From Clostridiaceae bacterium (GTDB taxonomy: Bacteria > Bacillota > Clostridia > Lachnospirales > Lachnospiraceae), in NCBI GenBank assembly GCA_910574345.1, contig CAJSZV010000004.1, forward strand, positions 1 to 64,000: a DNA stretch of 64,000 bases. The letters are read 5' to 3'. The position numbers were made by a program, and so were the translations under genes. This document shows, piece by piece, positions 36,902 to 64,000 of the stretch (position 1 is its first letter; every line of letters begins with the position of its first letter). Under the pieces are notes generated by a model. The model searched no databases. It was given only the letters and a program-made list of their open reading frames with translations, and was not told the origin of the DNA.

Positions 36902-36928
36902 AAAGGGACCTCCAAAGTTTATATCTTA

Positions 36929-36957
36929 ATCATCTATGGAATTCCTTATTCCGTCAA
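36929..36957 (-). promoter_or_regulatory. Candidate promoter of the minus-strand sulfatase
   Basis: On the minus strand TTGACG (36957-36952) and GATGAT (36934-36929) are 17 bases apart, 28 bases before the sulfatase start. Confidence 0.4.
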
Positions 36958-37032
36958 TAGTACAATTCCCATATAAATGTTTAAAAAACCATATAAAAAC
37001 AGAGAATATTAATATAATAACATAATCTAAAA

Positions 37033-37069
37033 AATCAAAAATTGTATTTTTGATTCTAAAACGTATAAT
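37033..37069 (+). promoter_or_regulatory. Promoter of the importer operon with overlapping palindromic operator
   Basis: A perfect inverted repeat, AATCAAAAAT-TGT-ATTTTTGATT (37033-37055), spans the -35 element TTGTAT (37042-37047). A 16-base spacer and a perfect TATAAT (37064-37069) follow. Palindrome over a -35 suggests repressor or activator control, most simply by the AraC-type regulator encoded at the operon end or the LacI-type regulator further right. Which one is not shown. Confidence 0.6.
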
Positions 37070-37132
37070 AAAGTCAGCTCATGGAAGAAAAACTATAAAC
37101 AATGCACAACAACAAAAAAGGAGGACGTATTC

Positions 37133-38704: not shown

Positions 38705-38727
38705 GAAATAAAAATCAGGAGGTTGAC

Positions 38728-40541: not shown

Positions 40542-40556
40542 AAGGAGAGAAAAATC

Positions 40557-43057: not shown

Positions 43058-43104
43058 GGCTGTGGTTCTGACAGACCGTTCGGCGGATATTTAGGAGGAA
43101 CAGG

Positions 43105-46483: not shown

Positions 46484-48239
46484 GGATTTGCTGCGCTCAT
46501 GGTGCGGCGGACTTTTAAAGCTGCAGCTTCAAAACCGAAAAGAGCCATCCCTTCAGGGCGGGATCCTGTGTCCGGCCTGCGGGATGATCCATGGCAGATG
46601 TTTTGACGCCATCTATCCTTTTTTGTATCTGGCTGATGCAGACCATGACGACACATACAAAAAAGGAGCCGAGCTTTTGTTTCAGTGGGCGGAACACACC
46701 GTATCCCGCTCCGACGGCTCCTATGTCAACGACATCAATTCCCCGTGGAAGGGAACCACGGTTTTTTCCGTCATTCAGTTAATTGAGGCCCTGACTTTTC
46801 ACGGCCATGTGCTGGGGAAGGATACCTTTGAGCAGTGGAAGGCGCGGGTGAAGAAGGCGGCGGACTTTCTGGCCGGATTTAAGGAGTTTGAAGTGTGCAA
46901 TGTAAATTACCGCATTGCCTGCAGCCTTGCCATGGAGCTGTGCGCCGATTTCCTGGGAGAAGAACGCTACCGTATCCGGGCCAAGGAGCTTTCTGCACTT
47001 GCCCTGCCCCAGCTGACTGAGGACGGACTTCTGGCGGGAGAAGGACGGCCCACAGACGGCTTTAGCCCCAGAGGATGCCGTCCCGTGGATATCGGGTATA
47101 ATCTGGAAGAGTCTCTTCCTTCTTTTTTGCAGTACACGTTGAAAACAGGAAACGCTTCTCTAAAGGAGCAGGTGATCCGGGTTTTGAAAAGACATCTTCT
47201 CTTTATGCTGGACGACGGAGGAATGGACAACAGTTTCGGAACCAGGAATTACAAGTGGACTTACTGGGGCAGCCGGACCAGCGACGGGTGCGTCCTTGGC
47301 TGTCTTTTAGCTGCCTCCGGGGAGCCGGAGCTGGGAACGGCAGCTTTTAGGAATCTGTCTCTTTTAAAAGCCTGTACTTTTGACGGGCTTCTCTACGGAG
47401 GTCTCCATATGCGTGACATGGGGGAGCCTCCCTGCGTCCATCACACCTTTGCCCACGCCAAAGTTCTGGCAGGGATTTTAGATCAGGAACTTTGGCCGTA
47501 TTTTTGCCGGGGAGAGCTTCCCAGAAGCCGGATGAAAGCACCGGAATATATGAAGGAGCTGGATACCTGGGTGATTCCGGGGAGAGAGTACACGGCTACG
47601 GTTACGGCCTATGACTGGGAATACGGAGGGCTGCCAAAGGGCCATCCAGGAGGAGGAACCTTGTCTCTTCTGTGGCACAAAAAGGCAGGGCTCACCTTGT
47701 GCTCCAGCATGGGAACATATTCGTTAAAAGAGCCTTATAATATGACCATGCCCCGTTTTGATTGCCATGAGTGTCTGACTCCCAGACTTGAGATGACAGA
47801 GGAGGGAAGGGTTTATTCCAGTCTGTATGACCACAGGTGCAGGATGGTGCAGACGGGGGAGCCGGGCCCTGTGACGGTCATAGAGGTAAGGGGCTGCATG
47901 ACAAGTCAGGAAGGCCGCAGGGAAGAGGGCAGAGAATATGCCATACGTTATATCTTTGAGCCGGACCGGATCCGTGTTTTGGGAGAGATGCCGGAAAAAA
48001 CCAGGTGGATTCTGCCTGTGGTCTCCGGGCGTGAGGAAGAAGTCATGGTCCATGAACAGCAGGTAACCGTGAAAAAAGGGGAAACTTATGTAACCCTTAT
48101 GGGAGAGCAGGGGAAACTGTCCCTGCCCCATGGCACCCGGCGGATCTACAACCTGGTTCCGGGAGCAGAAGCCCTTCGCCTTGATCTTAAGGAGGAAAAG
48201 GGGCGGGCGGCCTTTTCTCTCTCCTTTCGTCAGAGCTGA
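46467..48239 (+). CDS. Unassigned lyase/hydrolase-like protein of the glycan locus
   Basis: A 590-aa protein I cannot place with certainty. The first 380 residues are alpha-helical with repeated aromatic and acidic positions (NYRIACSLAMELCADFLG, RPVDIGYNLEESLPSFLQYTL, DDGGMDNSFGTRNYKWTYWGSR), which suggests an (alpha/alpha)n toroid. From about residue 385 a beta-sandwich seems to follow (WVIPGREYTATVTAYDWEYGG). This order resembles heparinase II/III-like or GH-type uronate enzymes. A GTG start (46467) with GGAGG seven bases upstream is preferred over the in-frame TTG at 46440. It overlaps the DUF2264 gene end. Confidence 0.6.
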   Translation: MKETCEDLLRSWCGGLLKLQLQNRKEPSLQGGILCPACGMIHGRCFDAIYPFLYLADADHDDTYKKGAELLFQWAEHTVSRSDGSYVNDINSPWKGTTVFSVIQLIEALTFHGHVLGKDTFEQWKARVKKAADFLAGFKEFEVCNVNYRIACSLAMELCADFLGEERYRIRAKELSALALPQLTEDGLLAGEGRPTDGFSPRGCRPVDIGYNLEESLPSFLQYTLKTGNASLKEQVIRVLKRHLLFMLDDGGMDNSFGTRNYKWTYWGSRTSDGCVLGCLLAASGEPELGTAAFRNLSLLKACTFDGLLYGGLHMRDMGEPPCVHHTFAHAKVLAGILDQELWPYFCRGELPRSRMKAPEYMKELDTWVIPGREYTATVTAYDWEYGGLPKGHPGGGTLSLLWHKKAGLTLCSSMGTYSLKEPYNMTMPRFDCHECLTPRLEMTEEGRVYSSLYDHRCRMVQTGEPGPVTVIEVRGCMTSQEGRREEGREYAIRYIFEPDRIRVLGEMPEKTRWILPVVSGREEEVMVHEQQVTVKKGETYVTLMGEQGKLSLPHGTRRIYNLVPGAEALRLDLKEEKGRAAFSLSFRQS

Positions 48240-50533: not shown

Positions 50534-51580
50534 TTATGAGATGGACTTGCTTCTTATGCCGCAGCTTCCGCAGCTCTCCCGCCCGGCAACATAATACGGA
50601 AGGCTGATCTTCACAGGCAGGGAATGGCCGCCCTCAATCCGGTCAATGAGAATCTTGGCCGTCATCTGCCCCATCTCTTCCACAGGAATGTGGATGGTGG
50701 TCAGCATAGGCGTTAAGTACTGCGCCGTGTCGATATCGTCAATGCTGATGAGAGAAATATCATGTGGGATAGACTTCCCGTGGTCTTTAATGGCCCGCAT
50801 GGCGCCGATGGCAGTGATATCGTTGGGACAGAAGACGGCACTAACAGGCACATTCCTCTTTAAAATCGCATCAGTCCCCCGGTATCCCCCCTCTGACGAC
50901 AGAGGAACATCGGCTGTCAGCTCCCGGCAGAAAGAAAGTCCGGCCTGAGACAGGGCCGCCAGATATCCATGGTAGCGGTTTTCGCTGTTTGTTTCCCCCA
51001 CATAGGCGATTCTTTGATGTCCCAGCTTGAAAAGATGTTCCATAGCGGTAATGGCCGCCTGATATCCGTCACAGATGATCTGGTCGTAATTGGCCTCCAG
51101 ACTGTTGAGGCCTGTATATGCCACATAACGGAAATACTGTTTTAAAAATTTTAGAAGCTGTTTGTTGCACCGCCCCAGAACTGCAACTCCGTCTACATGG
51201 TTATCCGAGATCAGACGGAAGATGCCGGGGTCATTCACATCAAAGGCGGTAAAGGTGTACTTTACAATATATCCGTGCTTAAAGGCTTCTTTTTCAATGC
51301 CTCGGGCCAGCGAAGTAAAAAATATATCTGTCTGTTCCTGATGAATCCTGGCGAAGAGGCAGGCGATGGACCGGGAGGGAACCTGGGAATCCGTGGGGCT
51401 GCCCATCTTCAGCTGACGGGCGCTGGTGTTGGGGATATAACCGGTGCGGCGCACGATCTCCCAGATCCGGTCCTGAATCTCCTGGCTGGCCGGCGCCTTG
51501 GTGCTTTTGTTGATGACACGGGAAACCGTGGAGATGGAAACCCCTGCCTCAGCGGCGATCTCTTTCAAAGTCATAATCAT
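50534..51580 (-). CDS. LacI-family transcriptional regulator
   Basis: A 348-aa regulator. The helix-turn-helix and hinge are typical (TLKEIAAEAGVSISTVSRVIN, then YIPNTSARQL), followed by a periplasmic-binding-like effector domain (about residues 65-340). The ligand is unknown. It is divergent from the sulfonate-type ABC genes, with a perfect CAAACGTTTG palindrome between them that fits a LacI-type operator. The start may be either of two nearby ATGs (51580 or 51574). Confidence 0.9.
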   Translation of the reverse strand: MIMTLKEIAAEAGVSISTVSRVINKSTKAPASQEIQDRIWEIVRRTGYIPNTSARQLKMGSPTDSQVPSRSIACLFARIHQEQTDIFFTSLARGIEKEAFKHGYIVKYTFTAFDVNDPGIFRLISDNHVDGVAVLGRCNKQLLKFLKQYFRYVAYTGLNSLEANYDQIICDGYQAAITAMEHLFKLGHQRIAYVGETNSENRYHGYLAALSQAGLSFCRELTADVPLSSEGGYRGTDAILKRNVPVSAVFCPNDITAIGAMRAIKDHGKSIPHDISLISIDDIDTAQYLTPMLTTIHIPVEEMGQMTAKILIDRIEGGHSLPVKISLPYYVAGRESCGSCGIRSKSIS

Positions 51581-51834: not shown

Positions 51835-52623
51835 ATGGAGACAAGAAAAAAAGACAAGTCTTTTTGGATGCAGATCCCTGACGGTGCGTGGATGGTGCTG
51901 TCGCTGGCAGCAGCGGTTCTTCTGTGGATTTTTATTGCTTCCACAGAGGCCGGCGGCGTAGTGTTCGCGGAACCGTGGGAGGTATTTGCAAAGCTGATGG
52001 ATAAGGTGTCCGACGGAACCTTGTGGCAACATACATACATCAGTTTGTTTCGGGTAATCGCAGGATTTTCGTTGGGATTTGTGATTTCCATCCCCATTGC
52101 GTTTCTTATGGGATGGTACGCGCCGTTTCGAAACGTGGTGGCGCCATGGGTGCAGTTTGTGCGGAATATTCCGCCTCTGGCTTATATCCCTCTGGTTATC
52201 ACCGGCGCAGGCGTTGGAGAGAAGGCAAAAGTCATCGTAATCTTTATCGCCTCCTTCCTGGTTTTAGTGGTTACCATATACCAGGGCGTGTGCAATGTGG
52301 ACGCCACTCTGATAAAGGCGGCAAGGGTATTAGGCGCGTCCGACAAGGATATTTTCTTTAAGGTCGTGATCCCCGCCTCCACCCCCTTTATTCTGGTAGG
52401 CGCCAGACTGGGACTTTCCGCTTCCCTTACCACTCTGGTGGCGGCGGAGCTGACCGGCGCTTCCAAGGGACTGGGAATGATGATTCAGAAAGCTCAGGGC
52501 TACTATGATATGGCCACGGTGCTTCTGGGAATTCTGATTATCGGAATTATCGGAATGTTGATGGAGCAGCTGGTTAAATTCTTAGAAAGGAAGCTGACAG
52601 GATGGCAGGAAACAGTGCAGTAA
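51835..52623 (+). CDS. ABC transporter permease, sulfonate/taurine/nitrate-type
   Basis: A 262-aa permease of the SsuC/TauC family with six predicted helices. The EAA-like loop near residue 160 reads AARVLGASDKDIFFKVVIP. The family transports aliphatic sulfonates, taurine, nitrate or thiamine precursors. Start ATG follows GGAGGGGTATAC. Its end overlaps the ATPase gene by 22 bases, so the two are coupled. Which ligand is used is not decidable from this gene. Confidence 0.88.
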   Translation: METRKKDKSFWMQIPDGAWMVLSLAAAVLLWIFIASTEAGGVVFAEPWEVFAKLMDKVSDGTLWQHTYISLFRVIAGFSLGFVISIPIAFLMGWYAPFRNVVAPWVQFVRNIPPLAYIPLVITGAGVGEKAKVIVIFIASFLVLVVTIYQGVCNVDATLIKAARVLGASDKDIFFKVVIPASTPFILVGARLGLSASLTTLVAAELTGASKGLGMMIQKAQGYYDMATVLLGILIIGIIGMLMEQLVKFLERKLTGWQETVQ

Positions 52624-53390
52624 AGGTAAAGATTGACAAGGTGGAGAAGGTATACAGCGGCCGCCACGGAGAAATGGTAGCTTTAAACGGCGTCAGTCTG
52701 GATATTATGGAAAATGAGTTCATCTGCGTGGTAGGCCCTTCGGGATGCGGAAAATCCACGCTGCTGAACGTGATTGCAGGTCTTTTGGAGCCTACGTCCG
52801 GGGCTGTCTACGTAGACGGGAAAGAGGTGCGGGGGCCGGGGCCGGAGCGGGGCGTAGTGTTTCAGCAATATGCGCTGTTTCCCTGGCTGACGGTGTTAAA
52901 GAACGTGCAGTTCGGGCTGAAGCTTAAGGGAGTCAGTGAGGCCCAGTCCAAAGAAACCGCCATGAAGTACTTGAAGATGGTGGATCTGGAGCAGTTTGCA
53001 GACTCCTACCCCAAGGAACTGTCCGGCGGCATGAAACAGAGAGTGGCCATAGCAAGGGCCTACGCAGTTAACCCCCAGGTGCTTTTGATGGATGAGCCTT
53101 TCGGCGCCCTGGATGCTCAGACCAGAACCCAGCTGCAGTCGGAACTGATTAAGACCTGGCAGGAGCAGAAAAAGACTTGCTTCTTTATCACCCATGATGT
53201 GGAGGAGGCCGTTATCCTGGCTACCAAGGTGATCATCATGAGTGCCAGACCGGGACGAATCAAGAAGATAGTGGATATCAACCTGCCTTACCCAAGGACC
53301 CAGGAGATGAAAATGGAGATGCCGTTTTTAGATCTTAAGAGTTATATCTGGGGAGAGGTATACCAGGAGTATCTGGAAGTTCGAAAGTAG
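52602..53390 (+). CDS. ABC transporter ATPase, sulfonate/taurine-type
   Basis: The nucleotide-binding subunit, 262 aa. Walker A is GPSGCGKSTLLN (about residue 46), the Q loop follows at FQQYALFPWLTV, the signature is LSGGMKQRVAIARAYA and Walker B is LLMDEPFGALD. An H-loop His is in FFITHDVEEAVIL. It belongs with the SsuB/TauB group. Partner of the preceding permease and the following lipoprotein. Confidence 0.92.
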   Translation: MAGNSAVKVKIDKVEKVYSGRHGEMVALNGVSLDIMENEFICVVGPSGCGKSTLLNVIAGLLEPTSGAVYVDGKEVRGPGPERGVVFQQYALFPWLTVLKNVQFGLKLKGVSEAQSKETAMKYLKMVDLEQFADSYPKELSGGMKQRVAIARAYAVNPQVLLMDEPFGALDAQTRTQLQSELIKTWQEQKKTCFFITHDVEEAVILATKVIIMSARPGRIKKIVDINLPYPRTQEMKMEMPFLDLKSYIWGEVYQEYLEVRK

Positions 53391-53461: not shown

Positions 53462-54583
53462 ATGAGAAAGACAATGAGTTTGGCATTGGCATCCCTTATG
53501 ACGGCCGCACTTCTGGCGGGCTGCGGAGGCGGCGGGTCTGCACCGGCTGCCACAGCGGCTCCCGAAACGACAAAGGCCCCTGAAACTACGGCGGCAGCGG
53601 CCCCTGAGACCACAAAAGTACCGGAATCCGCCGGTGAGACTCAGGCTCAGGCGGAGACCTTCGAGCCCGCCACACTCCGTGTGGCCTACATGCCCAACAT
53701 GGGAAGTGCATCTCTGGCGGTTACGGCCAGGGAGAAAGGATTCTTTGAGGAGATGGGCCTGAACGTGGAACTGGTGGAGTTCCAGGGCGGACCGGCTGAG
53801 ATCGCGGCCATGGCTTCCGGCGATATTGATATTTCCCAGATCGGCCATGGAGCCCATGCACTCTGTGCAGAGGGGGAAGCAGTGATCTTCCAGATTGACT
53901 GTACCAGTCTGGCTGACGCCGTTATGGGCAACAAAGACAAAGGTGTCAACAGCATCGCCGATCTCAAGGGCAAGAAAGTAGCTGCCACCAGCGGAACCTC
54001 GGCGGAGATCATCCTGAATCTGGCTTTGAAGCAGGAAGGCCTGACTGTTGACGATCTGGAACTTGTGGAGATGGATGCCAACGGTATCGTTACAGCTATG
54101 ATCAGCGGTAATGTGGACGCCTGCGCCACCTGGTCTCCGGGAACCATGACCATTGAACAGGCATTAAAGGACAAGACCGTATGGCTGGCGACGAATCAGG
54201 ATTATGTGAATCAGGTAACCTTCCCCTCCAGTTTTATCACCACTCAGAAGTTTGCTGACAGCAACCATGATGTGCTGGTTCGTTTCTCACGCGCTCTTCA
54301 GAAGGCCGCGGATTACCGCAACAGCAACATCGAGGAGGTAGCAGGCTGGGTGGCAAAGCAGTGCGAGGTGGACCAAGATACCATGAAGGCCACCGTAGGC
54401 GAGGGCAACTGGACCATTACCAGCGATTTCCTCAGCAAGGCTTTAGAGGACGGAACCATCAAAACCTACTACGAGAATCAGCAGCAGGTATTTATCGACG
54501 GCGGACGTCTGACAGAAAAGGTGGATGTCAATAATTATGTATTGTTTGATGTGATGAAAGAAGCCAACGAGGCCAATAAATAA
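53462..54583 (+). CDS. ABC transporter lipoprotein, sulfonate/NMT1-type
   Basis: A 373-aa substrate-binding protein. A lipoprotein signal ends at Cys21 (ALLAGC) and is followed by a Thr/Pro/Ala/Glu repeat linker (APETTKAPETT, then AAPETTKVPE, residues about 34-60). The binding domain begins at ATLRVAYMPNMGSASLAV and resembles SsuA/NMT1-like proteins (GDIDISQIGHGAHALCAEG). The ligand may be a sulfonate, taurine or another small anion. AAGGAGGAT precedes the ATG. It is separated from the ATPase gene by 71 bases with a small CCCG/CGGG hairpin that could set relative expression. Confidence 0.88.
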   Translation: MRKTMSLALASLMTAALLAGCGGGGSAPAATAAPETTKAPETTAAAAPETTKVPESAGETQAQAETFEPATLRVAYMPNMGSASLAVTAREKGFFEEMGLNVELVEFQGGPAEIAAMASGDIDISQIGHGAHALCAEGEAVIFQIDCTSLADAVMGNKDKGVNSIADLKGKKVAATSGTSAEIILNLALKQEGLTVDDLELVEMDANGIVTAMISGNVDACATWSPGTMTIEQALKDKTVWLATNQDYVNQVTFPSSFITTQKFADSNHDVLVRFSRALQKAADYRNSNIEEVAGWVAKQCEVDQDTMKATVGEGNWTITSDFLSKALEDGTIKTYYENQQQVFIDGGRLTEKVDVNNYVLFDVMKEANEANK

Positions 54584-54733: not shown

Positions 54734-56248
54734 ATGCTTTTGATTGTCCTTGTGTTCCTGGCCGTGTCCTCTGTGGCTCTCTTTTTTCTGAAGCGTGACC
54801 AGCAGACCATCTGGCTCTTAGGACTGTGTTTCAGCTTTATCTGCATGTTTGTGGGCATTACCATCTATCTGGCCAAGACAGGCGGATTGTCGCCGGAACA
54901 GAAAATGTTTTTGTTTTTTGACACCAGGATTCAGAGACGGCTTTCCTATCTGATGATTCCCTTAAGAAAACTGGGGTATATAATTGCCATCGGACGATAC
55001 CTGTTTCCCCTGTTTCTGCTTCTGACCGCCGTTCATTACAGTATGATTCCCGCAATCCTGCGTCTGCGTGCAAGGAGCCAGGCTGTCTTTGTTTTTCCTG
55101 TGCTCAGCCTGGTAGTCTACTATCCGGAGATTTTTTTCCGCCTGGTAAAGGGCAGGTTCCGTCTGCAGATGGCGCTCATGAATCTGACGCAGATTTGGAT
55201 CTTTGCCTATTTGGCAGGGGCGGTTATTCTGCTTGTCAGGGAGTACAGGGCCATAACCATTCCCTATTTAAAAAAGCAGTTCCGGTATATTATGGTATTT
55301 ATTCTGAATGTAACCATCCAGTATGCGGTCTACTGTACCCAGGACCCTCTCCAGGTATATCAGATCTATTCCGCGGAATATATGCGTTTCAGCGGCAGGC
55401 TGTATGCCAATTCTCTCATGAGTGTGGGAGGCTGGTATCTGTTTACAGGGTTTACTCTGGCTTCCGTGGTCATGGGATTCTGGAATCTTAAAAATTACAT
55501 GGTCATTGACTGGAAAGAAAATCAGCAGGATATGCGTGTCCGCAGAAAATTCGACACTGCCACTATGGGAGTATCCGTGTTTGTCCACAGCATTAAGAAC
55601 CAGCTGCTTTCCAACCGGGTGCTGTGCAAGAAGATCTACCGGGAGCTGGAAGAGGAACATCCGGATCTGGAGAAGCTGACCGGCTACGCAAGGATGCTGG
55701 AGGATGTGAACGAGAGTATGCTGGGGCGCATGGAAGAGCTGTACAAAAGCGTCCGGCAGAGCGGGATTTTCCTGTCTCCTGTCAGGGCCGGCCAGATCGT
55801 GGATACGGCTTTATGTCTGTTTCACAAAAAGTATCCGGAAGTGTCCGTGGAGGTGTCGGGCAGCCTGGTAGAATCCCTTTTGGCCGATGAGCAGCACTTA
55901 AGCGAGGCTCTCTGCAATCTGCTGACCAATGCCCATGAGGCCTTTGTCATGTCCGGGAAAAAGACGGAGCGGCTGGAGCTGGAGGTGTACGGGGAGCGGC
56001 TGTACGTAGGCTTTGAGGTCCGGGATAATGGTCCGGGGCTCACCAAACAGGAACAGCGAAAGATATTTGATCCCTTTTATACCAGTAAGAACACCAATAC
56101 CAACTGGGGTATGGGTCTTCACTATGTGAGGGAGATCGTAAAGAGTCATCTGGGGAAACTGAAGCTGGAAAGCCAGCCGGGAGAGGGGAGCAGTTTTTTT
56201 GTGGCTATTCCCCGCTATGAACCCAGGAAAGGAAAATCAGGTAGGTAA
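54734..56248 (+). CDS. Membrane sensor histidine kinase
   Basis: A 504-aa kinase. About seven hydrophobic segments fill the first 265 residues, with no large extracellular domain, so the signal may be sensed in or near the membrane. The phosphorylated His is H285 in VHSIKNQL. The ATPase half has EALCNLLTNAHEAF (N box), VRDNGPGL (G1), IFDPFYTSK (F) and NWGMGLHYV (G2). It is directly followed by a response regulator gene. It lies between the sulfonate-type transporter and the sugar operon, so it may regulate either. Confidence 0.88.
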   Translation: MLLIVLVFLAVSSVALFFLKRDQQTIWLLGLCFSFICMFVGITIYLAKTGGLSPEQKMFLFFDTRIQRRLSYLMIPLRKLGYIIAIGRYLFPLFLLLTAVHYSMIPAILRLRARSQAVFVFPVLSLVVYYPEIFFRLVKGRFRLQMALMNLTQIWIFAYLAGAVILLVREYRAITIPYLKKQFRYIMVFILNVTIQYAVYCTQDPLQVYQIYSAEYMRFSGRLYANSLMSVGGWYLFTGFTLASVVMGFWNLKNYMVIDWKENQQDMRVRRKFDTATMGVSVFVHSIKNQLLSNRVLCKKIYRELEEEHPDLEKLTGYARMLEDVNESMLGRMEELYKSVRQSGIFLSPVRAGQIVDTALCLFHKKYPEVSVEVSGSLVESLLADEQHLSEALCNLLTNAHEAFVMSGKKTERLELEVYGERLYVGFEVRDNGPGLTKQEQRKIFDPFYTSKNTNTNWGMGLHYVREIVKSHLGKLKLESQPGEGSSFFVAIPRYEPRKGKSGR

Positions 56249-56249
56249 C

Positions 56250-56918
56250 ATGATTCAAGTTGCAATTGTAGACGATTTTGAACTGCTCCGGGAGGATTTG
56301 CAGGAATTGATTGCAGGTCAGGAGGATATGGAAGTAGCGTGGCAGGCGGGAAGCGGCCGGGAGGCAGTGGAACTGGCGGGAGTGAAGGATACGGACATCA
56401 TTCTCATGGACATCGAGATGGAGACTGTCAACGCCGGAATCGTGGCTGCAGAGCGGATCGGAGATCAGGGGCGGGACCAGAAGATCATTTTTCTCACGGC
56501 TCATGAGACGAATCAGACCATTATTACCGCCATGGGCACCGGGGCCGTGGATTATGTGGTCAAAGGCTGTACGGATGAGGAGATCCTCAGGCATATCCGC
56601 AATGCCTATGTGGGAAAGCCGGTGATGGAATCGCGGATTCAGGAGACCATCATGAGGGAGTACAGCCGTCTGCAGAGGTCGGAGCAGAGTCTCTTGTTTT
56701 TTATAAACAACGTGTCTCAGCTGACTGCGGCGGAGAGGGAGCTTGTACGCCTTCTGCTGGAGGGAAACAAAGTGAAGGACATCGCCAGGATCCGCTGCGT
56801 GGAGATGATCACCGTAAAGACTCAGATCAAAGGGCTTCTGCGCAAGTTCGGATGCAGCAGAACAAAGGAGATCGTGTCCATGATTCAGGAGCTGAATATT
56901 TCTCATTTATTTTTGTAA
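56250..56918 (+). CDS. LuxR/NarL-type response regulator
   Basis: A 222-aa regulator. The receiver domain has Asp pair DDF at residues 8-9 and phospho-acceptor D54 in LMDIEME. The C-terminal helix-turn-helix has the LuxR form (LTAAERELVRLLLEGNKVKDIARI, then TVKTQIKGLLRKFG). The ATG at 56250 lies two bases after the kinase stop and is preceded by AGGTAGG. Its cognate kinase is the preceding gene and its targets probably include the sugar operon starting at 56984. Confidence 0.9.
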   Translation: MIQVAIVDDFELLREDLQELIAGQEDMEVAWQAGSGREAVELAGVKDTDIILMDIEMETVNAGIVAAERIGDQGRDQKIIFLTAHETNQTIITAMGTGAVDYVVKGCTDEEILRHIRNAYVGKPVMESRIQETIMREYSRLQRSEQSLLFFINNVSQLTAAERELVRLLLEGNKVKDIARIRCVEMITVKTQIKGLLRKFGCSRTKEIVSMIQELNISHLFL

Positions 56919-56983: not shown

Positions 56984-57805
56984 ATGCGTCACGAATATTA
57001 TTCTTACAATAAGGAACAGCTGCTGACGGACCCCAAGCTTCCCCTGTTCTGTCTGAAAGACAATGACAGCGTCTTTCAGCAGATGGCAGAGCAGATGGTC
57101 CATGAAATTCAGGCTAATAATGCAAAAGGAGAAAAGACGGTCTTCATCTGTCCCGTTGGACCTGTAGGCCAGTACCCCTATTTCGTGGACATGGTCAACA
57201 GCCAAAACGTCAGTCTGAAGCAGGTGTGGTTTATCAATATGGATGAATATCTGGATGAGAATAAGCAGTGGATTCCCATGGATCACCCCTTAAGTTTCCG
57301 GGGCTTTATGGAGCGTACGGTGTACTCAAAGATCAAACCGGAGCTTTTGATGGGGGAGGATCAGAGAATATTCCCGGATCCTAACCATGTGGAGCAGATA
57401 CCGGAGCTTATCGAGAAACTGGGCGGCGTGGACATCGCCTTTGGCGGCATCGGAATCAATGGCCATGTGGCATTTAACGAGGCGGATTCGGAGATGAGCC
57501 CGGAAGAATTCCTGGCGCAGAAAACCAGAGTGCTTCCCATCAGCCCGGAGACCCGTGCAGCCAATGCCATCGGGGATTTCGGAGGGGCTTTGGAGGATAT
57601 GCCTGAGTATTGTGTGACCGTGGGAATCTATGAGATCGCCCATGCCAGGAAGATTCGCCTGGGGTGTTTTAGAAACTGGCATCGGGCTGTGGTGCGCCGT
57701 GCAGGACATGGAGATGTGACAACCGATTTCCCTGTCAGCCTTCTTCGTGACCATGAGGACATTACCCTGACTTTCACGGAATATGTGGGACGGCTGGAGG
57801 ATTAG
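56984..57805 (+). CDS. NagB-like sugar-phosphate isomerase/deaminase
   Basis: A 273-aa member of the glucosamine-6-phosphate deaminase/6-phosphogluconolactonase fold. The base is conserved (D87 in NMDEYL, like D72 of E. coli NagB), and H161 and E166 match H143 and E148. However, E. coli D141 is N159 here (GINGHVAFNE). The phosphate loop PTGGTP reads PVGPVG, and the C-terminal GSQK motif is replaced by CFRNWHRAVV. It may isomerise rather than deaminate, or use a different substrate. ATG at 56984 follows AAGGAGGAAA. Confidence 0.82.
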   Translation: MRHEYYSYNKEQLLTDPKLPLFCLKDNDSVFQQMAEQMVHEIQANNAKGEKTVFICPVGPVGQYPYFVDMVNSQNVSLKQVWFINMDEYLDENKQWIPMDHPLSFRGFMERTVYSKIKPELLMGEDQRIFPDPNHVEQIPELIEKLGGVDIAFGGIGINGHVAFNEADSEMSPEEFLAQKTRVLPISPETRAANAIGDFGGALEDMPEYCVTVGIYEIAHARKIRLGCFRNWHRAVVRRAGHGDVTTDFPVSLLRDHEDITLTFTEYVGRLED

Positions 57806-57855
57806 AGGCAAAGACAGGCAAAGGGTTCGAGTATACAGAAGGAGGTTATGGAGAG

Positions 57856-59013
57856 ATGGCAGTATTATTAAAGGGCGGAATGGTCTATCAGGGCCATGAG
57901 TTTGTGCGGGCCGATATACTTATGTCAGAGGGGGTTATCGCCGCTGTGGGAACAGGTCTGGCGGAAACAAACGCTCAGGTAACAGATGTGGCGGGAAAGC
58001 GGATTGTGCCGGGATTTCTGGACATTCATACCCACGGGGCAGTGGGGGTGGATGTCAATGGGGCAAGGGCAGAGGATTATGAGAAGATCTGCCGGTTCCA
58101 TGTAAGCCAGGGGACCACCGGGTGGCTCTGTTCCGTTCTCACGGATACCAGGGAGCAGACCCTGTGGTGTATAGAAGAATACAAGCGCTGGAAGAATCTG
58201 GAGCATGAAGGCTCCCGCCTTTTAGGCATTCACCTGGAAGGTCCCTTCTTAAGCCCGCAGTATAAGGGAGCTATGCCGGAATATCTTCTTCAGAAGCCAA
58301 ATCTGGATTTGGTGAGAGAATATCAGGAAGCTGCAGACGGGGAGATTCGCTATATCACCGTGTCCCCGGAGGTTGAGAGCATGGTGGATTTTATACCTGC
58401 CCTCTGCGAACTGGGAATGACCGTGTCCATCGGCCATTCCGGAGCGGACTACGAGACCTCCAGAAAGGCCATTGCAAACGGCGTCGCAGCGGCCACCCAC
58501 ACAGGCAATGTCATGCGGCTTCTGCACCAGCACGAGCCGGCTATCTGGGGAGCGGTTCTGGAGGATGATGAGGTCTACTGCGAGACCATCTGTGACGGCC
58601 GTCATCTTCATCCGGGAACCGTGCGCCTGATCTTAAAGACCAAGGGCACAGACCGGGTGGTGGCTGTCACAGATTCCATTATGGCCGCCGGACTGCCCGA
58701 CGGAAACTACAAGTTGGGAGTCAACGACGTAGTGGTCGTGGACGGAGACGCCAAGCTGACAGACGGAACCAGGGCCGGAAGCACTCTTACCTCAGGCCAG
58801 GCCCTTAAGAATCTTCTTGCCTTTACAGGGCGTCCATTGGAGGAGATTCTTCCTCTCCTGACAGAGAATCCGGCCAGACTCATCGGTGTCTATGACCGGG
58901 TAGGCTCCTTAGACGAGGGAAAGGACGCGGATCTTGTGATTCTTGATGAGGCCTGCTGCGTGGAGGCGGCTTACGTGAAGGGAGAACCCTGTTTTTCCCG
59001 GCAGGAGGCATAA
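57856..59013 (+). CDS. NagA-like N-acetyl-sugar-phosphate deacetylase
   Basis: A predicted amidohydrolase that removes acetyl from an N-acetyl-amino-sugar phosphate. At 385 aa it is the usual size. Metal and catalytic sites: HTHGAVGVD (HxH), HLEGPFLSPQYKGA (Glu), GHSGADYE and THTGNVM (His), with catalytic Asp in VTDSIMAAG. The substrate-binding segment that in NagA reads FNAMxPLxHREPG is THTGNVMRLLHQHEP here, so sugar preference (GlcNAc-6-P, GalNAc-6-P or another) is uncertain. AAGGAGGTTATGGAG precedes the ATG. Confidence 0.85.
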   Translation: MAVLLKGGMVYQGHEFVRADILMSEGVIAAVGTGLAETNAQVTDVAGKRIVPGFLDIHTHGAVGVDVNGARAEDYEKICRFHVSQGTTGWLCSVLTDTREQTLWCIEEYKRWKNLEHEGSRLLGIHLEGPFLSPQYKGAMPEYLLQKPNLDLVREYQEAADGEIRYITVSPEVESMVDFIPALCELGMTVSIGHSGADYETSRKAIANGVAAATHTGNVMRLLHQHEPAIWGAVLEDDEVYCETICDGRHLHPGTVRLILKTKGTDRVVAVTDSIMAAGLPDGNYKLGVNDVVVVDGDAKLTDGTRAGSTLTSGQALKNLLAFTGRPLEEILPLLTENPARLIGVYDRVGSLDEGKDADLVILDEACCVEAAYVKGEPCFSRQEA

Positions 59014-59015
59014 AC

Positions 59016-60281
59016 ATGGGAATTGCTTTTGATCTGAGCAGAGCCGAAACCTATCTCAGCAGAGAAGAGCTGGAGAGGGCAGGCGCAAAGGCTGCAGAGC
59101 TCTGCCGGACTCTGTATGAGAGAGAAGACACAGAAGGGGTGCTGGGCTGGCGGACCAAGGAGAAATCAGTTCTGCAGCTGGATGAGATAAAGGCCAAGGC
59201 GGAGGAGGTCAGGAAGAGGGCGGATGTGTTTGTCATCGTCGGCGTGGGAGGCTCCAACCAGGCGGCAAGAGCCCTCATCGAAGCCCTGCCAAGAAAAAAA
59301 AGACCAAAAATCATATATCTTGGCAACACCCTTTCCTCTTATACCATTACAAGGACACTGGAGGAACTGGAAGGAAAAAGCGTATACATCAATGTGATTG
59401 CCAAGAATTTTGGGACCCTGGAGCCAGGAAGCCATTTCCGGATTCTGCGGCAGTGGATGGCGGAGCGCTGCAGCAAAGAAGACATGGCAGACAGGATCAT
59501 TGTCACCGGCACCAAAGGTTCCCGGCTTCATGAGATAGCGCGGGAGAGGGGATACCTGTTTTTGCAGTTTCCCGTGCCCGTAGGCGGACGATACTCCGCT
59601 TTTACGCCTGTGTGCCTGTTCCCCATGGCGGCGGCGGGACTGGATGTGGATGAGTATCTGGCAGGCATGGAAAGCGCCTGTGAAGATTGTCAAAATCACC
59701 TGGAGGACAACCCGGCAGTCAGGTACGCAGCTCTAAGGCAGCTCCTCTACAGCCATGGATATGACATAGAGATGATGGTATCTTTTGAACCCCGATACGC
59801 CTTTTTTACAAAATGGTGGGTACAGCTTTTCGGGGAGAGCGAAGGAAAGGACAAGAAAGGCATCTTTCCCGCCGCCTCCATATACTCTGAGGATCTTCAT
59901 TCCATCGGGCAGTATATACAGGAGGGGAGGAGGAATCTTATGGAAACCTTTTTGTCCGTGAAAGAGCCGGGTCCCTCCCTTAAGGTGGAGCCCTGTCCGG
60001 AATACAAAGACGGCTTTGATTATCTGGACGGCATGGAATTTGGAGATATTAACCGGGCGGCAGAGGAAGCGACTCTTAATGCTCATGCCAAAGGAGGAGT
60101 TCCCTGCATCCGTTTTACGGCGGATTTGGTCTCGGAGAGAAGCTTTGGGGAATTGTATTATTATTTTATGGCGGCCTGCGCCGTGTCCGGGGAGATGATG
60201 GGGGTCAACCCATTTGACCAGGAAGGTGTGGAAGAGTACAAGAGAAGCATGTTTACAGCCCTTGGAAAAACAGATCCTTAA
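59016..60281 (+). CDS. Glucose-6-phosphate isomerase-like enzyme with altered phosphate loop
   Basis: A 421-aa SIS-fold sugar isomerase. The body is colinear with bacterial PGI: GVGGSNQAARALIEAL, VGGRYSAFTPV, the catalytic Glu in FGESEGKDKKG, DLHSIGQYIQEG, a His in NAHAKGGVP and Lys in NPFDQEGVEEYK. The phosphate-binding loop, ISKSGTTTEP in ordinary PGI (recalled), reads IAKNFGTLEP, which loses two Ser and two Thr. Substrate may therefore differ from an ordinary 6-phosphate sugar. It begins two bases after nagA-like and precedes the kinase gene. Confidence 0.85.
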   Translation: MGIAFDLSRAETYLSREELERAGAKAAELCRTLYEREDTEGVLGWRTKEKSVLQLDEIKAKAEEVRKRADVFVIVGVGGSNQAARALIEALPRKKRPKIIYLGNTLSSYTITRTLEELEGKSVYINVIAKNFGTLEPGSHFRILRQWMAERCSKEDMADRIIVTGTKGSRLHEIARERGYLFLQFPVPVGGRYSAFTPVCLFPMAAAGLDVDEYLAGMESACEDCQNHLEDNPAVRYAALRQLLYSHGYDIEMMVSFEPRYAFFTKWWVQLFGESEGKDKKGIFPAASIYSEDLHSIGQYIQEGRRNLMETFLSVKEPGPSLKVEPCPEYKDGFDYLDGMEFGDINRAAEEATLNAHAKGGVPCIRFTADLVSERSFGELYYYFMAACAVSGEMMGVNPFDQEGVEEYKRSMFTALGKTDP

Positions 60282-60311
60282 GGGGGCAGGCAAAGGAAAG
60301 GAGAATGAAAG

Positions 60312-61502
60312 TTGGCAAATGTATTGGTGGTACACGGAGGCGGTCCCACGGCGGTGATTAACGCTTCCCTGTACGGGGTAATCGCAGAGGCGGCAAAGCA
60401 TGAAGAGATCCGCCATGTATACGGAGCCATAGGAGGCAGCGAGGGAATCTTAAAGGAACGGTTCCTTAATCTCACATCTTTCCCGGAAGAAAAGTTAAAA
60501 CTGCTTCTGACCACGCCTGCCACAGCCATCGGCTCGTCAAGGTATGCCCTTGAGGCAGAGGACTATGAGGCCATGAGGGTAGTCTTTCAAAAACATGATA
60601 TCCGGTATGTACTGCTCAACGGCGGAAACGGAACCATGGACACCTGCGGAAAGATCCACCGGGTCTGCAGGGACTTTGGGATACATGTAGTGGGAATTCC
60701 CAAGACCGTGGACAATGATATCGCCGTAACAGACCACACGCCGGGCTACGGAAGCGCTGCCCGGTATCTGTCGGAGACCGTGGCTGAGGTGGGAGTGGAT
60801 GTGAAATCCCTTCCCATCCATGTGTGCATTGTGGAAGCCATGGGCCGCAACGCCGGGTGGATTACGGCAGCCTCGGCTCTGGCCAGGAAGAAGCCGGGAG
60901 ACGCTCCCCATCTTATCTATCTGCCGGAACGGGTCTTCCATGAGGATGAATTCTTGGAGGATGTTAAGAGACTCTATGAGGAAAAAGGCGGCGTGGTGGT
61001 AGTGGCAAGCGAAGGATTAAAGGGCGGGGACGGAAAGCCCATTGTACCGCCTGTATTCCAGACGGGAAGATCGGTTTACTACGGCGATGTAAGCGCCTAC
61101 CTGGCGGAACTGGTGATCAAGGGTCTGGGAATCAAAGCCAGAAGCGAGAAGCCGGGCATCTGCGGACGGGCCTCCATCAGTCTTCAGTCCCCGGTGGACC
61201 GGGACGAGGCGGTACTGGCAGGCCGAGAGGCTCTTAGAGCGGCTCTTCGGGGAGAAGGCGGAAAGATGGTGGGCTTTGTCCGGGAGGATATGCCGGATCA
61301 TACTTACAAGATTTCTGTCTCCATGGTTCCCATTGATGAGGTTATGCTCTATGAAAAGCCGGTTCCGGAAGCCTATATCAACGACAGGGGCAATGATGTG
61401 ACGGAGGACTTTGTCAGGTGGTGCAGACCTTTGACGGGAGCCGTGATCCCGGAGTACATTGATTTTCAGGAGCTGTACTGGGAAGCAGCGAAAAAAGAGT
61501 AA
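60312..61502 (+). CDS. 6-Phosphofructokinase-like kinase
   Basis: A 396-aa PFK-family enzyme. It begins HGGGPTAVINASLYGVI. The nucleotide/diphosphate motif reads NGGNGTMDT, and the catalytic Asp pair is in PKTVDNDI. EAMGRNAGW follows. The second position being Gly (GGNGT, not GGNDS) points to ATP as donor. The Lys in PKTVDND is usual in diphosphate-dependent forms but also occurs in ATP-dependent trypanosome-type PFK (established knowledge). The substrate may be fructose 6-phosphate or an analogue. TTG start with AAAGGAGA seven bases upstream. Confidence 0.82.
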   Translation: MANVLVVHGGGPTAVINASLYGVIAEAAKHEEIRHVYGAIGGSEGILKERFLNLTSFPEEKLKLLLTTPATAIGSSRYALEAEDYEAMRVVFQKHDIRYVLLNGGNGTMDTCGKIHRVCRDFGIHVVGIPKTVDNDIAVTDHTPGYGSAARYLSETVAEVGVDVKSLPIHVCIVEAMGRNAGWITAASALARKKPGDAPHLIYLPERVFHEDEFLEDVKRLYEEKGGVVVVASEGLKGGDGKPIVPPVFQTGRSVYYGDVSAYLAELVIKGLGIKARSEKPGICGRASISLQSPVDRDEAVLAGREALRAALRGEGGKMVGFVREDMPDHTYKISVSMVPIDEVMLYEKPVPEAYINDRGNDVTEDFVRWCRPLTGAVIPEYIDFQELYWEAAKKE

Positions 61503-61514
61503 AGGAGAACAGCC

Positions 61515-62351
61515 ATGAAACATATTTTTTTAAACCTGAAACGCTTTGATGTCCCCAGGGAGTTAGGGGGAGTCAACGGGATCGCTCCCATAGCCTCATG
61601 GGGAAGCTACATCATAGAACACACTCAGGAGCACCTGAAAGCTTATGACAAAGACCAGGTGGAGTTTGTCATGTATTTTCCTGAGGCTCATCTGATTCCC
61701 GCCCTGTCGGCCCTGTGTCCCCACAGTCCCGTGAAAGTGGGATGCCAGGGCGTGTACCGGGAGGACACAAGCACAGGCGGCAACTTCGGAGCCTTTACCA
61801 CCAACCGGACGGCCAACAGCGTGAAGGCTCTGGGGTGCACAGCTGTCATCATCGGCCACTGCGAGGAGCGCCGGGACAAGGCGGGAGTGCTGGCGGAGGC
61901 CGGGGTTACGGACACGGCGGCAGTGAACCGTCTGCTGAACAAGGAGATCGGAGCGGCAGTGAAGGCCGGACTTTCCGTGCTGTACTGCATCGGCGAGACT
62001 GCCGAGGAACAGCCAAGATGGCAGGAGGTCCTGGAGGAACAGCTGACAACAGGACTGAAAGGTGTGGACCGGACCAGGGTCACCATCGCCTATGAGCCTG
62101 TGTGGGCCATCGGGCCTGGGAAGGTGCCGCCGGATGAGGCCTACATTACCAAGATCGGAACCTTTGTGAAAGAGGTGACAGGAGGCATGGATGTGGTCTA
62201 CGGCGGAGGCTTAAAGACGGACAATGCCCGGATGCTTGCTTCTGTCCCGGTTATGGACGGCGGTCTCATCGCCCTGACCCGGTTTGCAGGAGAGATCGGA
62301 TATTACCCCGATGAGTATCTGGAGATTATAGGAACCTATATGGGAAAGTAA
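61515..62351 (+). CDS. Triosephosphate isomerase-like enzyme, divergent
   Basis: A 278-aa TIM barrel. Catalytic residues are conserved: Asn and Lys in FLNLKRF, His in GHCEERR and Glu in AYEPVWAIG. The phosphate loops are altered: loop 6 IGTGK is IGPGK, loop 7 YGGS is YGGGL, and loop 8 LVGGAS is LIALTRF. It is also longer than standard TIM (about 250). It may isomerise a different aldose/ketose pair, such as a tetrose or a sulfonated triose. The ATG follows AAAGGAGAAC. Confidence 0.82.
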   Translation: MKHIFLNLKRFDVPRELGGVNGIAPIASWGSYIIEHTQEHLKAYDKDQVEFVMYFPEAHLIPALSALCPHSPVKVGCQGVYREDTSTGGNFGAFTTNRTANSVKALGCTAVIIGHCEERRDKAGVLAEAGVTDTAAVNRLLNKEIGAAVKAGLSVLYCIGETAEEQPRWQEVLEEQLTTGLKGVDRTRVTIAYEPVWAIGPGKVPPDEAYITKIGTFVKEVTGGMDVVYGGGLKTDNARMLASVPVMDGGLIALTRFAGEIGYYPDEYLEIIGTYMGK

Positions 62352-62366
62352 AAGGAGGTATTTGAC

Positions 62367-63866
62367 ATGAAACTTTCATTTGAGTATGGCCAGGGGTTGA
62401 TGACGGCAGAACTGCCTGACACTACGGATGTGTTTATTCCCGGTGAGACCGTTCCCGACCCGCCCTGTATCCCGGAGGACCAGATCGAGGCGAAGACGTT
62501 GGAGTCCATCCGCAATCCCATGGGAATGGAGCCTCTCTCCAAGCTGGCCCGCAGGGGTTCCAAGGTTACCATCGTATTCCCGGACCGGGTAAAGGGAGGC
62601 GAACAGCCCACTTCCCACAGGAAAGTGTCCATTAAGCTGATTCTCAAAGAGCTTTATGACGCGGGAGTGGAGAAAAAGGATATTCTTCTCATCTGTTCCA
62701 ATGGTCTCCATCGCAAGAACACGGAGCAGGAGATAAGGGGCGTTCTGGGTGACGAGCTTTTCCATGAGTTCTGGCATACCCATCAGATCATCAACCACGA
62801 CAGCGAGGATTATGATCATCTGGTGGATCTGGGAACCACCCAAAGAGGGGATCCGGTTCTGATGAACAAGTATGTCTATGACAGCGATGTAGCCATCCTC
62901 ATCGGCCACACCCAGGGAAACCCCTACGGCGGATATTCCGGCGGCTACAAACACTGCGCCACGGGAATCACCCACTGGCGGTCCATTGCCTCCCATCATG
63001 TTCCTGAGGTAATGCACAGGCAGGACTTTACGCCCGTAAGCGGAACCTCTCTCATGCGCACCAAGTTCGACGAGATCGGCCAGCATATGGAAGCGTGCAT
63101 GGGAAAGAAGTTTTTCTGCTGTGACGCGGTGCTGGACACCAGGTCACGCCAGATCGAGATCAACAGCGGCTATGCCAAGGTGATGCAGCCCCATTCCTGG
63201 ATTGCGGCGGACAAGCGCACCTATGTGCCCTGGGCCGAGAAGAAATATGACGTGATGATATTCGGAATGCCTCAGTTTTTCCATTATGGAGAGGGCATGG
63301 GAACCAATCCCATTATGCTTATGCAGGCCATCTCCGCCCAGGTGATCCGCCACAAGAGGATTATGAGCGACCGCTGCGTGATCATCTGTTCTTCCATCTG
63401 CAACGGATACTTCCACGACGAACTGTGGCCCTACACACGGGAAATGTATGACATGTTCCAGAAGGATTACATGAACACCCTGCCGGATATGAACCGATAC
63501 GGAGAGTATTTTGCCACCAACCAGGAATATATCCGCAAATACCGCTACTGCAACGCCTTCCATCCCTTCCACGGCTTTTCCATGATCAGCTGCGGCCACA
63601 TCGCGGAGATGAATACATCGGCCATCTATCTGTGCGGCGCCCAGGAACCGGGCTTTGCCAGAGGCATGGGGCTGAAAACAAGAGCCACCATTGAGGAAGC
63701 CTTAGAAGATGCTAAAAAGAAGTTCGTAGGGCCAAATCCCAACATTTTAGCCCTTCCTAAGACCTTTAAGCTCAGCGCGGTCCATCTGATGATGAAGGAT
63801 GATGTGTATACCGGAAAAGGCGCAGAAGACTGCCATTGCATGGCCCACCAGCATATGCACGGATAG
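62367..63866 (+). CDS. LarA-like (DUF2088) racemase/epimerase domain protein
   Basis: A 499-aa protein of the nickel-pincer lactate racemase superfamily. NGLHRKNTEQE matches the LarA segment with a catalytic His. GGYSGGYKHCATG supplies the Lys (LarA K184), and 16 residues later HH (H200 position) in SIASHHVPE. It could racemise or epimerise an alpha-hydroxy acid. LarA homologues act on lactate, malate, gluconate-type acids and others. No larB, larC or larE is in the window, so the cofactor would come from elsewhere. AAAGGAGGTATTTGAC precedes the ATG. Confidence 0.78.
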   Translation: MKLSFEYGQGLMTAELPDTTDVFIPGETVPDPPCIPEDQIEAKTLESIRNPMGMEPLSKLARRGSKVTIVFPDRVKGGEQPTSHRKVSIKLILKELYDAGVEKKDILLICSNGLHRKNTEQEIRGVLGDELFHEFWHTHQIINHDSEDYDHLVDLGTTQRGDPVLMNKYVYDSDVAILIGHTQGNPYGGYSGGYKHCATGITHWRSIASHHVPEVMHRQDFTPVSGTSLMRTKFDEIGQHMEACMGKKFFCCDAVLDTRSRQIEINSGYAKVMQPHSWIAADKRTYVPWAEKKYDVMIFGMPQFFHYGEGMGTNPIMLMQAISAQVIRHKRIMSDRCVIICSSICNGYFHDELWPYTREMYDMFQKDYMNTLPDMNRYGEYFATNQEYIRKYRYCNAFHPFHGFSMISCGHIAEMNTSAIYLCGAQEPGFARGMGLKTRATIEEALEDAKKKFVGPNPNILALPKTFKLSAVHLMMKDDVYTGKGAEDCHCMAHQHMHG

Positions 63867-63896
63867 AATTTTTTCGAGAAAGAGAAGGAGGAGATT

Positions 63897-64000
63897 ATGC
63901 CATTAATTCCATTACGCCCCTTATTGGAGGCAACGGTTACATATGGGTTCGGCCAGGGAGCTTTTAATGTCAACGCCGTGGCCCAGGCAAAAGCAGCCAT
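63897..64000 (+). CDS. Class II fructose-bisphosphate aldolase-like protein (start only)
   Basis: The first 34 codons are in the window: an N-terminal PLIPLRPLLEATVTYG followed by GAFNVNAVAQAKAA, which is the start of class II (zinc) ketose-bisphosphate aldolases. The gene continues past the right edge. It completes the upper-glycolysis-like series of the operon. AGAAGGAGGAGATT precedes the ATG. The actual ketose substrate cannot be judged from this fragment. Confidence 0.75.
   Translation, partial: MPLIPLRPLLEATVTYGFGQGAFNVNAVAQAKAA

Follow-up and report, generated by a model that had tools for sequence, protein, structure and literature searches.

The single-catalytic-histidine subfamily of LarA has been described from the solved structures 9q2u, 9q3k and 9q3j (Gatreddi 2025, PMC12611868). 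For its member LarA_Sp, lactate racemization was not detected and an unidentified 316.5 Da adduct was reported. The accessible text of that paper lists phosphoglucose isomerase (PGI), phosphofructokinase (PFK), triosephosphate isomerase (TIM), fructose-bisphosphate aldolase (FBA) and NagB genes as neighbours and suggests a role in carbohydrate metabolism, and a glycolysis-like neighbourhood of single-histidine LarA has thus already been published. According to the available portion of a 2022 review, gut Firmicutes had no glycosaminoglycan (GAG) locus that had been characterized by then (PMC9067506). Here, we analysed a window of 64,000 nucleotides, corresponding to bases 1-64000 of contig C4 (CAJSZV010000004.1) of a Clostridiaceae bacterium genome of 5.6 Mb in 106 contigs, which encodes a LarA-like protein of this subfamily within an operon of NagB-, NagA-, PGI-, PFK-, TIM-, LarA- and aldolase-like genes.

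This operon belongs to a conserved parallel catabolic module, which is real, and whose substrates most likely share a non-phosphate anion, with a sulfate ester as the best candidate. We assign a probability of roughly 0.5 to the reading that the module catabolizes hexoses and hexosamines bearing a non-phosphate anion at C6, most likely a sulfate ester, as in N-acetylglucosamine-6-sulfate (GlcNAc-6-sulfate). The sulfate and every reaction described below, above all the LarA step, are what we infer.

A parallel set of glycolysis-like enzymes

As originally predicted, the seven open reading frames (ORFs) from the NagB-like to the aldolase-like gene are consecutive, all on the + strand, with intergenic gaps of 2 to 50 bases. 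Promoter-like sites along the operon showed no excess over shuffles and terminator-like sites no clear excess, so that the operon structure is supported by spacing and synteny. A canonical TIM is encoded on contig C16 (317 bits versus 119 for the operon TIM-like copy) and a canonical PGI on C8 (422 bits versus 49 for the operon PGI-like copy), and two further NagB-family genes are located on C23 and C1. Since canonical TIM and PGI sit elsewhere in the genome, the operon duplicates central enzymes as a parallel set, in agreement with the original prediction.

Anion sites of the core enzymes

Residue counts given below refer to aligned relatives, with rows from duplicated contigs still included and with fragmentary ORFs and ORFs hidden under long antisense ORFs left out; the residues named as phosphate-holding in TIM, PGI, NagB, NagA and PFK are those which we take to fulfil this role. 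The TIM-like isomerase (61515..62351, +) carries GGG instead of GGS and [IV]ALT[RKN] instead of VGGAS in its phosphate loops (GGG and ALT in 40/40), while the catalytic Lys, His and Glu are retained in all 40, and it scores 66 bits against canonical TIM (TIGR00419), below the curated cut-off of 131. In the PGI-like isomerase (59016..60281, +; 1b0z, E 2e-101), AKNF replaces SKSG of the SKSGTT loop (46/46), as read from the alignment with 1b0z; the MAFFT alignment with the longer canonical PGI was unreliable outside motifs. The site is changed only partly (S to A and S/T to N), with Ser80, Lys130 and Thr134 kept (46/46), and the protein misses the cut-off of the Firmicutes-type PGI model PRK14097 (417 bits versus 443). 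In the NagB-like deaminase/isomerase (56984..57805, +), the canonical phosphate Lys aligns to the His of an FRxWH motif, whose Arg, Trp and His are invariant (15/15), and the S/T phosphate loop is shortened to PVGPxGQY; the second NagB-family gene (L002) was excluded as a comparator because a wrong ORF had been taken from it, and L001 and L005 were likewise excluded. The protein has a predicted NagB fold and misses the cut-off for canonical NagB (TIGR00502, 103 bits versus 237). A Pfam scan assigned it to no family and a genome search with PF01182 was silent at 56984-57805; its NagB relatives were recovered by NCBIfam, PDB sequence and fold searches.

The NagA-like deacetylase (57856..59013, +) passes its curated cut-off (TIGR00221, 295 bits versus 226) and carries HQHxP[A/S] in place of the HHREPG-type motif of 2vhl, with the phosphate-site Arg replaced by His (second His 16/16). 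The PFK-like 1-kinase (60312..61502, +, TTG start), which is of the PRK14072 type (411 bits, cut-off 273), matches PF00365 and has 3k2q as a solved relative. Arg277, Arg286 and Lys280 are all conserved in 29/29, and Arg277 and Arg286 presumably correspond to the 6-phosphate-site arginines R243 and R252 of the Escherichia coli enzyme. At the positions for the phosphate donor, ATP or pyrophosphate (PPi), Gly107 (28/29) and Lys131 (29/29) are found. The class II fructose-bisphosphate aldolase-like gene (3gak, E 2e-55) starts at 63897 on the + strand, so that its first 104 bases (63897..64000) lie in the window, and ends at contig position 65045.

Because the substitutions in TIM, PGI and NagB are invariant and the anion-site arginines of PFK are kept, the pocket looks rebuilt rather than lost, and it still looks anionic given the invariant Arg277, Arg286 and Lys280 of the PFK-like enzyme and the Arg, Trp and His of the NagB-like enzyme. 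The original prediction that NagB, PGI and TIM had exchanged phosphate-holding residues while keeping catalytic ones holds, and these exchanges proved to be fixed in relatives, with the restriction that the PGI site is altered only in part. The set of altered enzymes has to be redrawn to include NagA, and the PFK-like enzyme retains two arginines at the presumed 6-phosphate site. With invariant substitutions across relatives and one recurrent gene set, there is good support for the view that several enzymes have changed in concert to accept substrates sharing one non-phosphate anion.

The LarA-like protein

The LarA-like protein (62367..63866, +) is orthologous to 9q2u/9q3k (E 9e-270) and 9q3j (E 2e-260); the original prediction had the family right and had missed the placement in the solved single-histidine subfamily. 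Asp73, Lys76, His115, Asn185, Lys195, His211, His306 and Tyr307 of LarA_Sp have identical numbering here and are found in 32/32 relatives, including Asn185 in place of the second catalytic histidine (H to N), the NPN (nickel-pincer nucleotide) lysine Lys195, His211 and His115, and the nickel-ligand histidine is kept. In this genome, LarC and LarB are encoded on C2. LarC was also considered as a module marker and was dropped, as it is present in 24/29 genomes carrying the TIM-like protein (carriers) and in 18/20 listed non-carriers. Homologues of LarB, LarC and/or LarE occur near the module in L059, L060, L088, L098, L100, L101 and L105, and cobalt/nickel transporter-like genes (assigned by eye) are present in some loci with nearby NPN biosynthesis genes. 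In L083 (6646-8300), LarA appears as two overlapping ORFs in different frames, and an epimerase-like ORF (by eye) lies between LarA and TIM.

Distribution and gene content of related loci

The TIM-like protein was identified in 29/392 genomes sampled from the order (E<=1e-30) and the LarA-like protein in 8/398 genomes sampled from the phylum (E<=1e-80), the own genome included in both cases. Gene content was compared by tblastn over 67 loci, comprising 42 PGI-like loci in named genomes and 27 TIM-match regions with two duplicates merged (L081 and L084 with L059 and L060, which are on the same contigs). L092 and L093 share 17/28 probes and were both kept. The TIM-match regions represent 27 of the 28 non-own matches, the one left out being G164, which lies near a contig end. 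PGI was found in 49 loci and TIM in 46, both counts being inflated by the selection of loci by PGI or TIM, followed by LarA (43), PFK (30), FBA (30), NagB (24), NagA (22), PMI-like (phosphomannose isomerase; 7) and GlmD/AgaS-like genes (3), and a sulfatase-like ORF was present in 11 loci. LarA accompanies TIM in 41 of the 46 TIM loci; four of the remaining five are cut at the locus edge, and L087 contains TIM alone. L090 and L092-L094 hold TIM and LarA as a pair with no other core genes, and a PFK-like gene is encoded elsewhere in 4/5 of the genomes behind L090-L094. Core genes beyond PGI are found in Hungatella, Mobilisporobacter, Anaerocolumna, Gemmiger, Mesobacillus and a spirochaete metagenome-assembled genome, among others, and the extent to which LacI, a two-component system and an ABC importer of the sulfonate/taurine type accompany them varies.

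The recurring entry enzymes are PGI, PMI and NagA, the last paired with either NagB or a GlmD/AgaS-like deaminase. Given the PMI-like and GlmD/AgaS-like enzymes present in relatives, the module would serve several hexoses rather than the single amino sugar originally proposed; the proposal of a common, different anion is well supported by the same comparison.

Several further features of these loci were observed. A conserved aldose-1-epimerase-like ORF (by eye) is located close to the core in L062 (2312-3193), L064 (2559-3440), L080 (6581-7474), L085 (6132-7016) and L101 (1666-2556), beside LacI in three loci and beside FBA in L080, and is possibly the mutarotase of the module. In L063 and L067-L071, the PGI-like gene is less closely related (45-47% identity) and is accompanied by genes for a GH3 enzyme and an ABC transporter of the oligopeptide type (both by eye); five of these six loci also contain a sulfatase-like ORF, the exception being L070, which holds TIM and LarA. 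Very long antisense ORFs over LarA and NagA/NagB in L048, L050, L056 and L078 mislead longest-ORF gene calling.

Transport, regulation and neighbouring genes

The functional unit reaches further upstream than the seven-gene core originally delimited, and the module comprises 13 genes from a LacI-family regulator (50534..51580, - strand, divergent from the module; PF00356, PF13377) through the aldolase-like gene. The regulator is followed on the + strand by an SsuC-type ABC permease (51835..52623; PF00528), an SsuB-type ABC ATPase (52602..53390; family by eye), a lipoprotein-like substrate-binding protein of the NMT1/SsuA/TauA superfamily (53462..54583; PF09084, E 2e-27), a histidine kinase (54734..56248; PF02518) and a LuxR-type response regulator (56199..56918; PF00072, PF00196). 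The nearest solved homologue of the binding protein is the unassigned 3qsl (E 3e-15), then taurine-binding 6ssy (E 4e-13), 3e4r, named a nitrate transport protein (E 8e-13), and SsuA 2x26 (E 7e-12). The search for the gene set and its transporters in other genomes that had been suggested for the operon showed that the core recurs with homologues of SsuB (>=55% identity) in 22/67 loci, 18 of which also contain TIM or LarA, SsuC (>=45%) in 20/67 and SsuA (>=38%) in 19/67. Without identity floors, these counts are 23, 23 and 20, respectively; the matches set aside as weak lie in L039, L080 and L092 for SsuC and in L080 for SsuB. LacI homologues (35-69% identity) are present in 19/67 loci and the kinase/regulator pair in 13/67.

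A TauE/SafE homologue was identified in 10/67 loci, the family assignment resting on a PF01925 match of the member from L100. In L044, L050, L051, L056, L076, L078 and L096, it follows LarA in the same orientation and starts at a distance of <=350 bases, and in L059 it lies directly after PGI; the seven LarA-TauE loci are not independent, as they include three Gemmiger and several related Oscillospiraceae-type genomes. Upstream of the module, the window contains a putative GAG-type degradation locus (35432-48239) with two SGSH_C sulfatases, a GH88-like gene, a DUF2264 gene, a gene for an unassigned 599-aa protein and a sugar-type ABC importer (by eye).

Association with sulfatases

Strong matches to the sulfatase family PF00884 (E<=1e-40) were present in 24/29 carriers, compared with 0/20 listed same-family non-carriers and 12/50 other non-carriers of the order, picked by genome number, which makes 12/70 non-carriers altogether. 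Fisher p values, which ignore relatedness, were 1e-9 overall, 2e-5 within the family and 5e-6 outside it. Some PF00884 matches in non-carriers have the length of lipoteichoic acid (LTA) synthases. Together with the importer type and TauE/SafE, the sulfatases favour a sulfate ester among the candidate anions.

Proposed pathway

Sulfated GlcNAc, N-acetylgalactosamine and galactose are abundant in mucin and GAGs, and natural 6-O-sulfated sugars are many, whereas few C6-sulfonated hexoses are known (two); the variety of entry enzymes fits the former better. In the proposed pathway, GlcNAc-6-sulfate derived from GAGs or mucin would be taken up via the SsuABC-type transporter, deacetylated by the NagA-like enzyme and deaminated by the NagB-like enzyme to fructose-6-sulfate, while PGI-, PMI- or GlmD/AgaS-like enzymes would let other sugars in. 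The PFK-like enzyme would then phosphorylate C1, and the aldolase-like protein would cleave the product to dihydroxyacetone phosphate (DHAP), which would pass to normal glycolysis, and glyceraldehyde-3-sulfate. The latter would be isomerized by the TIM-like enzyme, the LarA-like protein would process the C3 sulfate, and TauE/SafE, where present, might export sulfate or a C3 compound.

We consider it possible, and rather doubtful, that TIM and LarA form a desulfating end, in which the TIM-like enzyme interconverts glyceraldehyde-3-sulfate and dihydroxyacetone sulfate and a nickel-pincer hydride transfer by the LarA-like protein expels sulfate, yielding methylglyoxal or lactate. The single histidine would here serve a one-way hydride transfer that is redox-neutral overall. 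Such a reaction would explain the missing second histidine, as the second half-reaction would expel sulfate and require no alkoxide protonation. If true, a desulfating LarA would represent a new class of NPN reactions as well as a novel means of cleaving sulfate esters.

Alternative substrates

Several observations weigh against a sulfate ester or its proposed processing. The evidence on the pockets consists of aligned residues rather than a docked pocket, and the alignments by themselves are also compatible with a carboxylate or a neutral substrate. Plain PF00884 counts within the family of this genome differ only mildly between carriers and non-carriers (Mann-Whitney p 0.02), two of the 29 carriers lack PF00884 matches and three more have weaker ones only, and sulfatase-rich non-carriers exist (e.g. 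G014, with 28 matches at E<=1e-40). Carriers are phylogenetically clustered, and sulfatase-rich genomes may simply be those of polysaccharide degraders; moreover, it is not evident why a genome that encodes sulfatases would need a route that bypasses them. TauE/SafE was not seen in the module of the window (no genome-wide search was made), and both the NMT1/SsuA and the TauE/SafE families have broad substrates. Furthermore, LarC is absent from carriers G102, G180, G327, G094 and G181, the last of which is only 75% complete, and LarB, tested in 10 carriers, is below cut-off or absent in these five and present in the other five. The NPN-based mechanism is thus the weakest link of the proposal. 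All five nevertheless hold a LarA-like gene (L083, L085, L082, L086 and L106, respectively), and the intact LarA ORFs of L082 and L085 keep the cofactor lysine and the nickel histidine, so that these hosts either obtain NPN otherwise or the LarA-like protein works without it.

Rather unlikely in our view is a new variant of the sulfoglycolytic Embden-Meyerhof-Parnas (sulfo-EMP) pathway, in which a C6-sulfonated sugar (sulfoquinovose or an amino analogue) would yield DHAP and sulfolactaldehyde, the latter for the TIM-LarA pair, and sulfite or a C3 sulfonate would leave via TauE. SsuABC-type importers and TauE genes are indeed typical of sulfonate metabolism. The Firmicutes pathway sulfo-EMP2 uses a PF00365 kinase and a PF01116 aldolase (PMC9594981), and TauE is the proposed sulfite exporter of a sulfofucose pathway (PMC12421959). 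Yet the 13 module genes include no SqvD (a FucI-like isomerase), SqvB, sulfoquinovosidase (YihQ) or sulfolactaldehyde dehydrogenase/reductase (for the latter two, no genome-wide search was made). The sulfoquinovose marker DUF4867 (SqvB family) shows no positive link with the module, being present in 13/29 carriers versus 16/20 non-carriers (p 0.02) and, within the family of this genome, in 5/9 versus 16/20 (p 0.2, not significant), and in this genome it is encoded on C12, not on C4. A sulfonate route would also require amino, manno and gluco C-sulfonates and would leave the sulfatase association unexplained. We rank an O-sulfate over a sulfonate because of the absent Sqv genes, the DUF4867 pattern and the variety of entry enzymes.

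The remaining candidates appear less probable still. If uronic or N-acetyl-aminouronic acids, after isomerization or after deacetylation and deamination, received a phosphate at C1 and were split into DHAP and tartronate semialdehyde, which the TIM-like enzyme would convert to hydroxypyruvate, LarA would act on a 2-hydroxy acid, and such acids are the substrates known for its superfamily (PMC7583248). The multiple entry enzymes would fit glucuronic acid, mannuronic acid and aminouronates, and a GH88-like gene lies upstream in the window. We regard such a carboxylate as improbable, since the kinds of importer and TauE gene suggest sulfur oxoanions, tartronate-semialdehyde reductase and glycerate kinase are absent from the module genes, and the second catalytic histidine of LarA is missing in 32/32. 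A similarly low probability applies to specialized isozymes binding ordinary GlcNAc-6-phosphate or fructose-6-phosphate in a different manner. This would accord with the PFK- and NagA-like proteins exceeding their family cut-offs, the partly retained phosphate site of PGI and the DHAP product still implied by a class II aldolase and PFK, but phosphate ligands are lost or changed, and fixed, in TIM, PGI, NagB and NagA, canonical TIM and PGI are encoded elsewhere, and import in the linked loci would rely on an ABC transporter rather than a phosphorylating phosphotransferase system (PTS). Least probable are free or 6-deoxy sugars without an anion at C6. The hydrophobic gains L254 in the TIM-like (40/40) and F132 in the PGI-like protein (46/46), which also weigh against the sulfate-ester reading, would suit such neutral substrates, whereas the PFK arginines and the NagB Arg and His are invariant, and one would expect a sugar ABC importer of the CUT type.

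Comparison with known systems

The enzyme families, reaction order and catalytic residues of the module are those of GlcNAc-6-phosphate catabolism (NagA, NagB) and the Embden-Meyerhof pathway. It differs from these in its altered phosphate ligands, in NagB-, PGI- and TIM-like proteins that fall below curated cut-offs, and in being parallel to canonical TIM and PGI. As in the Gram-positive sulfo-EMP2 pathway (SqvD/SqiK/SqiA; PMC9594981), isomerization would be followed by a PfkA-family C1 kinase and a class II aldolase, leaving a C3 oxoanion; this likeness is at the family level, with PF00365 found by scanning and the class II aldolase recognized by its solved relatives rather than by a PF01116 scan. 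The adaptation of PFK and aldolase families to a sulfur oxoanion therefore has precedent in sulfo-EMP2, which uses both. Unlike sulfo-EMP2, the module contains a PGI-like isomerase, NagA/NagB-like entry enzymes and added TIM- and LarA-like steps, and its sulfatase association suggests an O-sulfate.

With the single-histidine LarA system, the module shares an orthologous protein with the same active-site residues and PGI, PFK, TIM, FBA and NagB neighbours (PMC12611868). The accessible text of that paper proposes carbohydrate metabolism only and mentions neither a pathway or an anion nor a type of transporter or a link to sulfatases, and the operon provides candidate substrates and steps for this solved subfamily. 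Among the papers listed by searches of the open-access PMC library, none showed a sulfatase-free route for the catabolism of sulfated monosaccharides, and neither did the accessible passages on a mucin N-acetylhexosamine degrader (PMC13096917), on 6-sulfo-GlcNAcases (PMC11659886) and of PMC11770544. The gene set can be used to ask how gut Firmicutes utilize GAG- and mucin-derived sugars. The heparin/heparan route of Bacteroides, with the GlcNAc-6-O-sulfatase BT4656, starts from the source sugar proposed here, GlcNAc-6-sulfate. However, Bacteroides strips the sulfate before cytoplasmic import (PMC9067506), whereas here it would ride through to the C3 stage, and if this is true, sulfated host sugars would be burnt without prior removal of sulfate.

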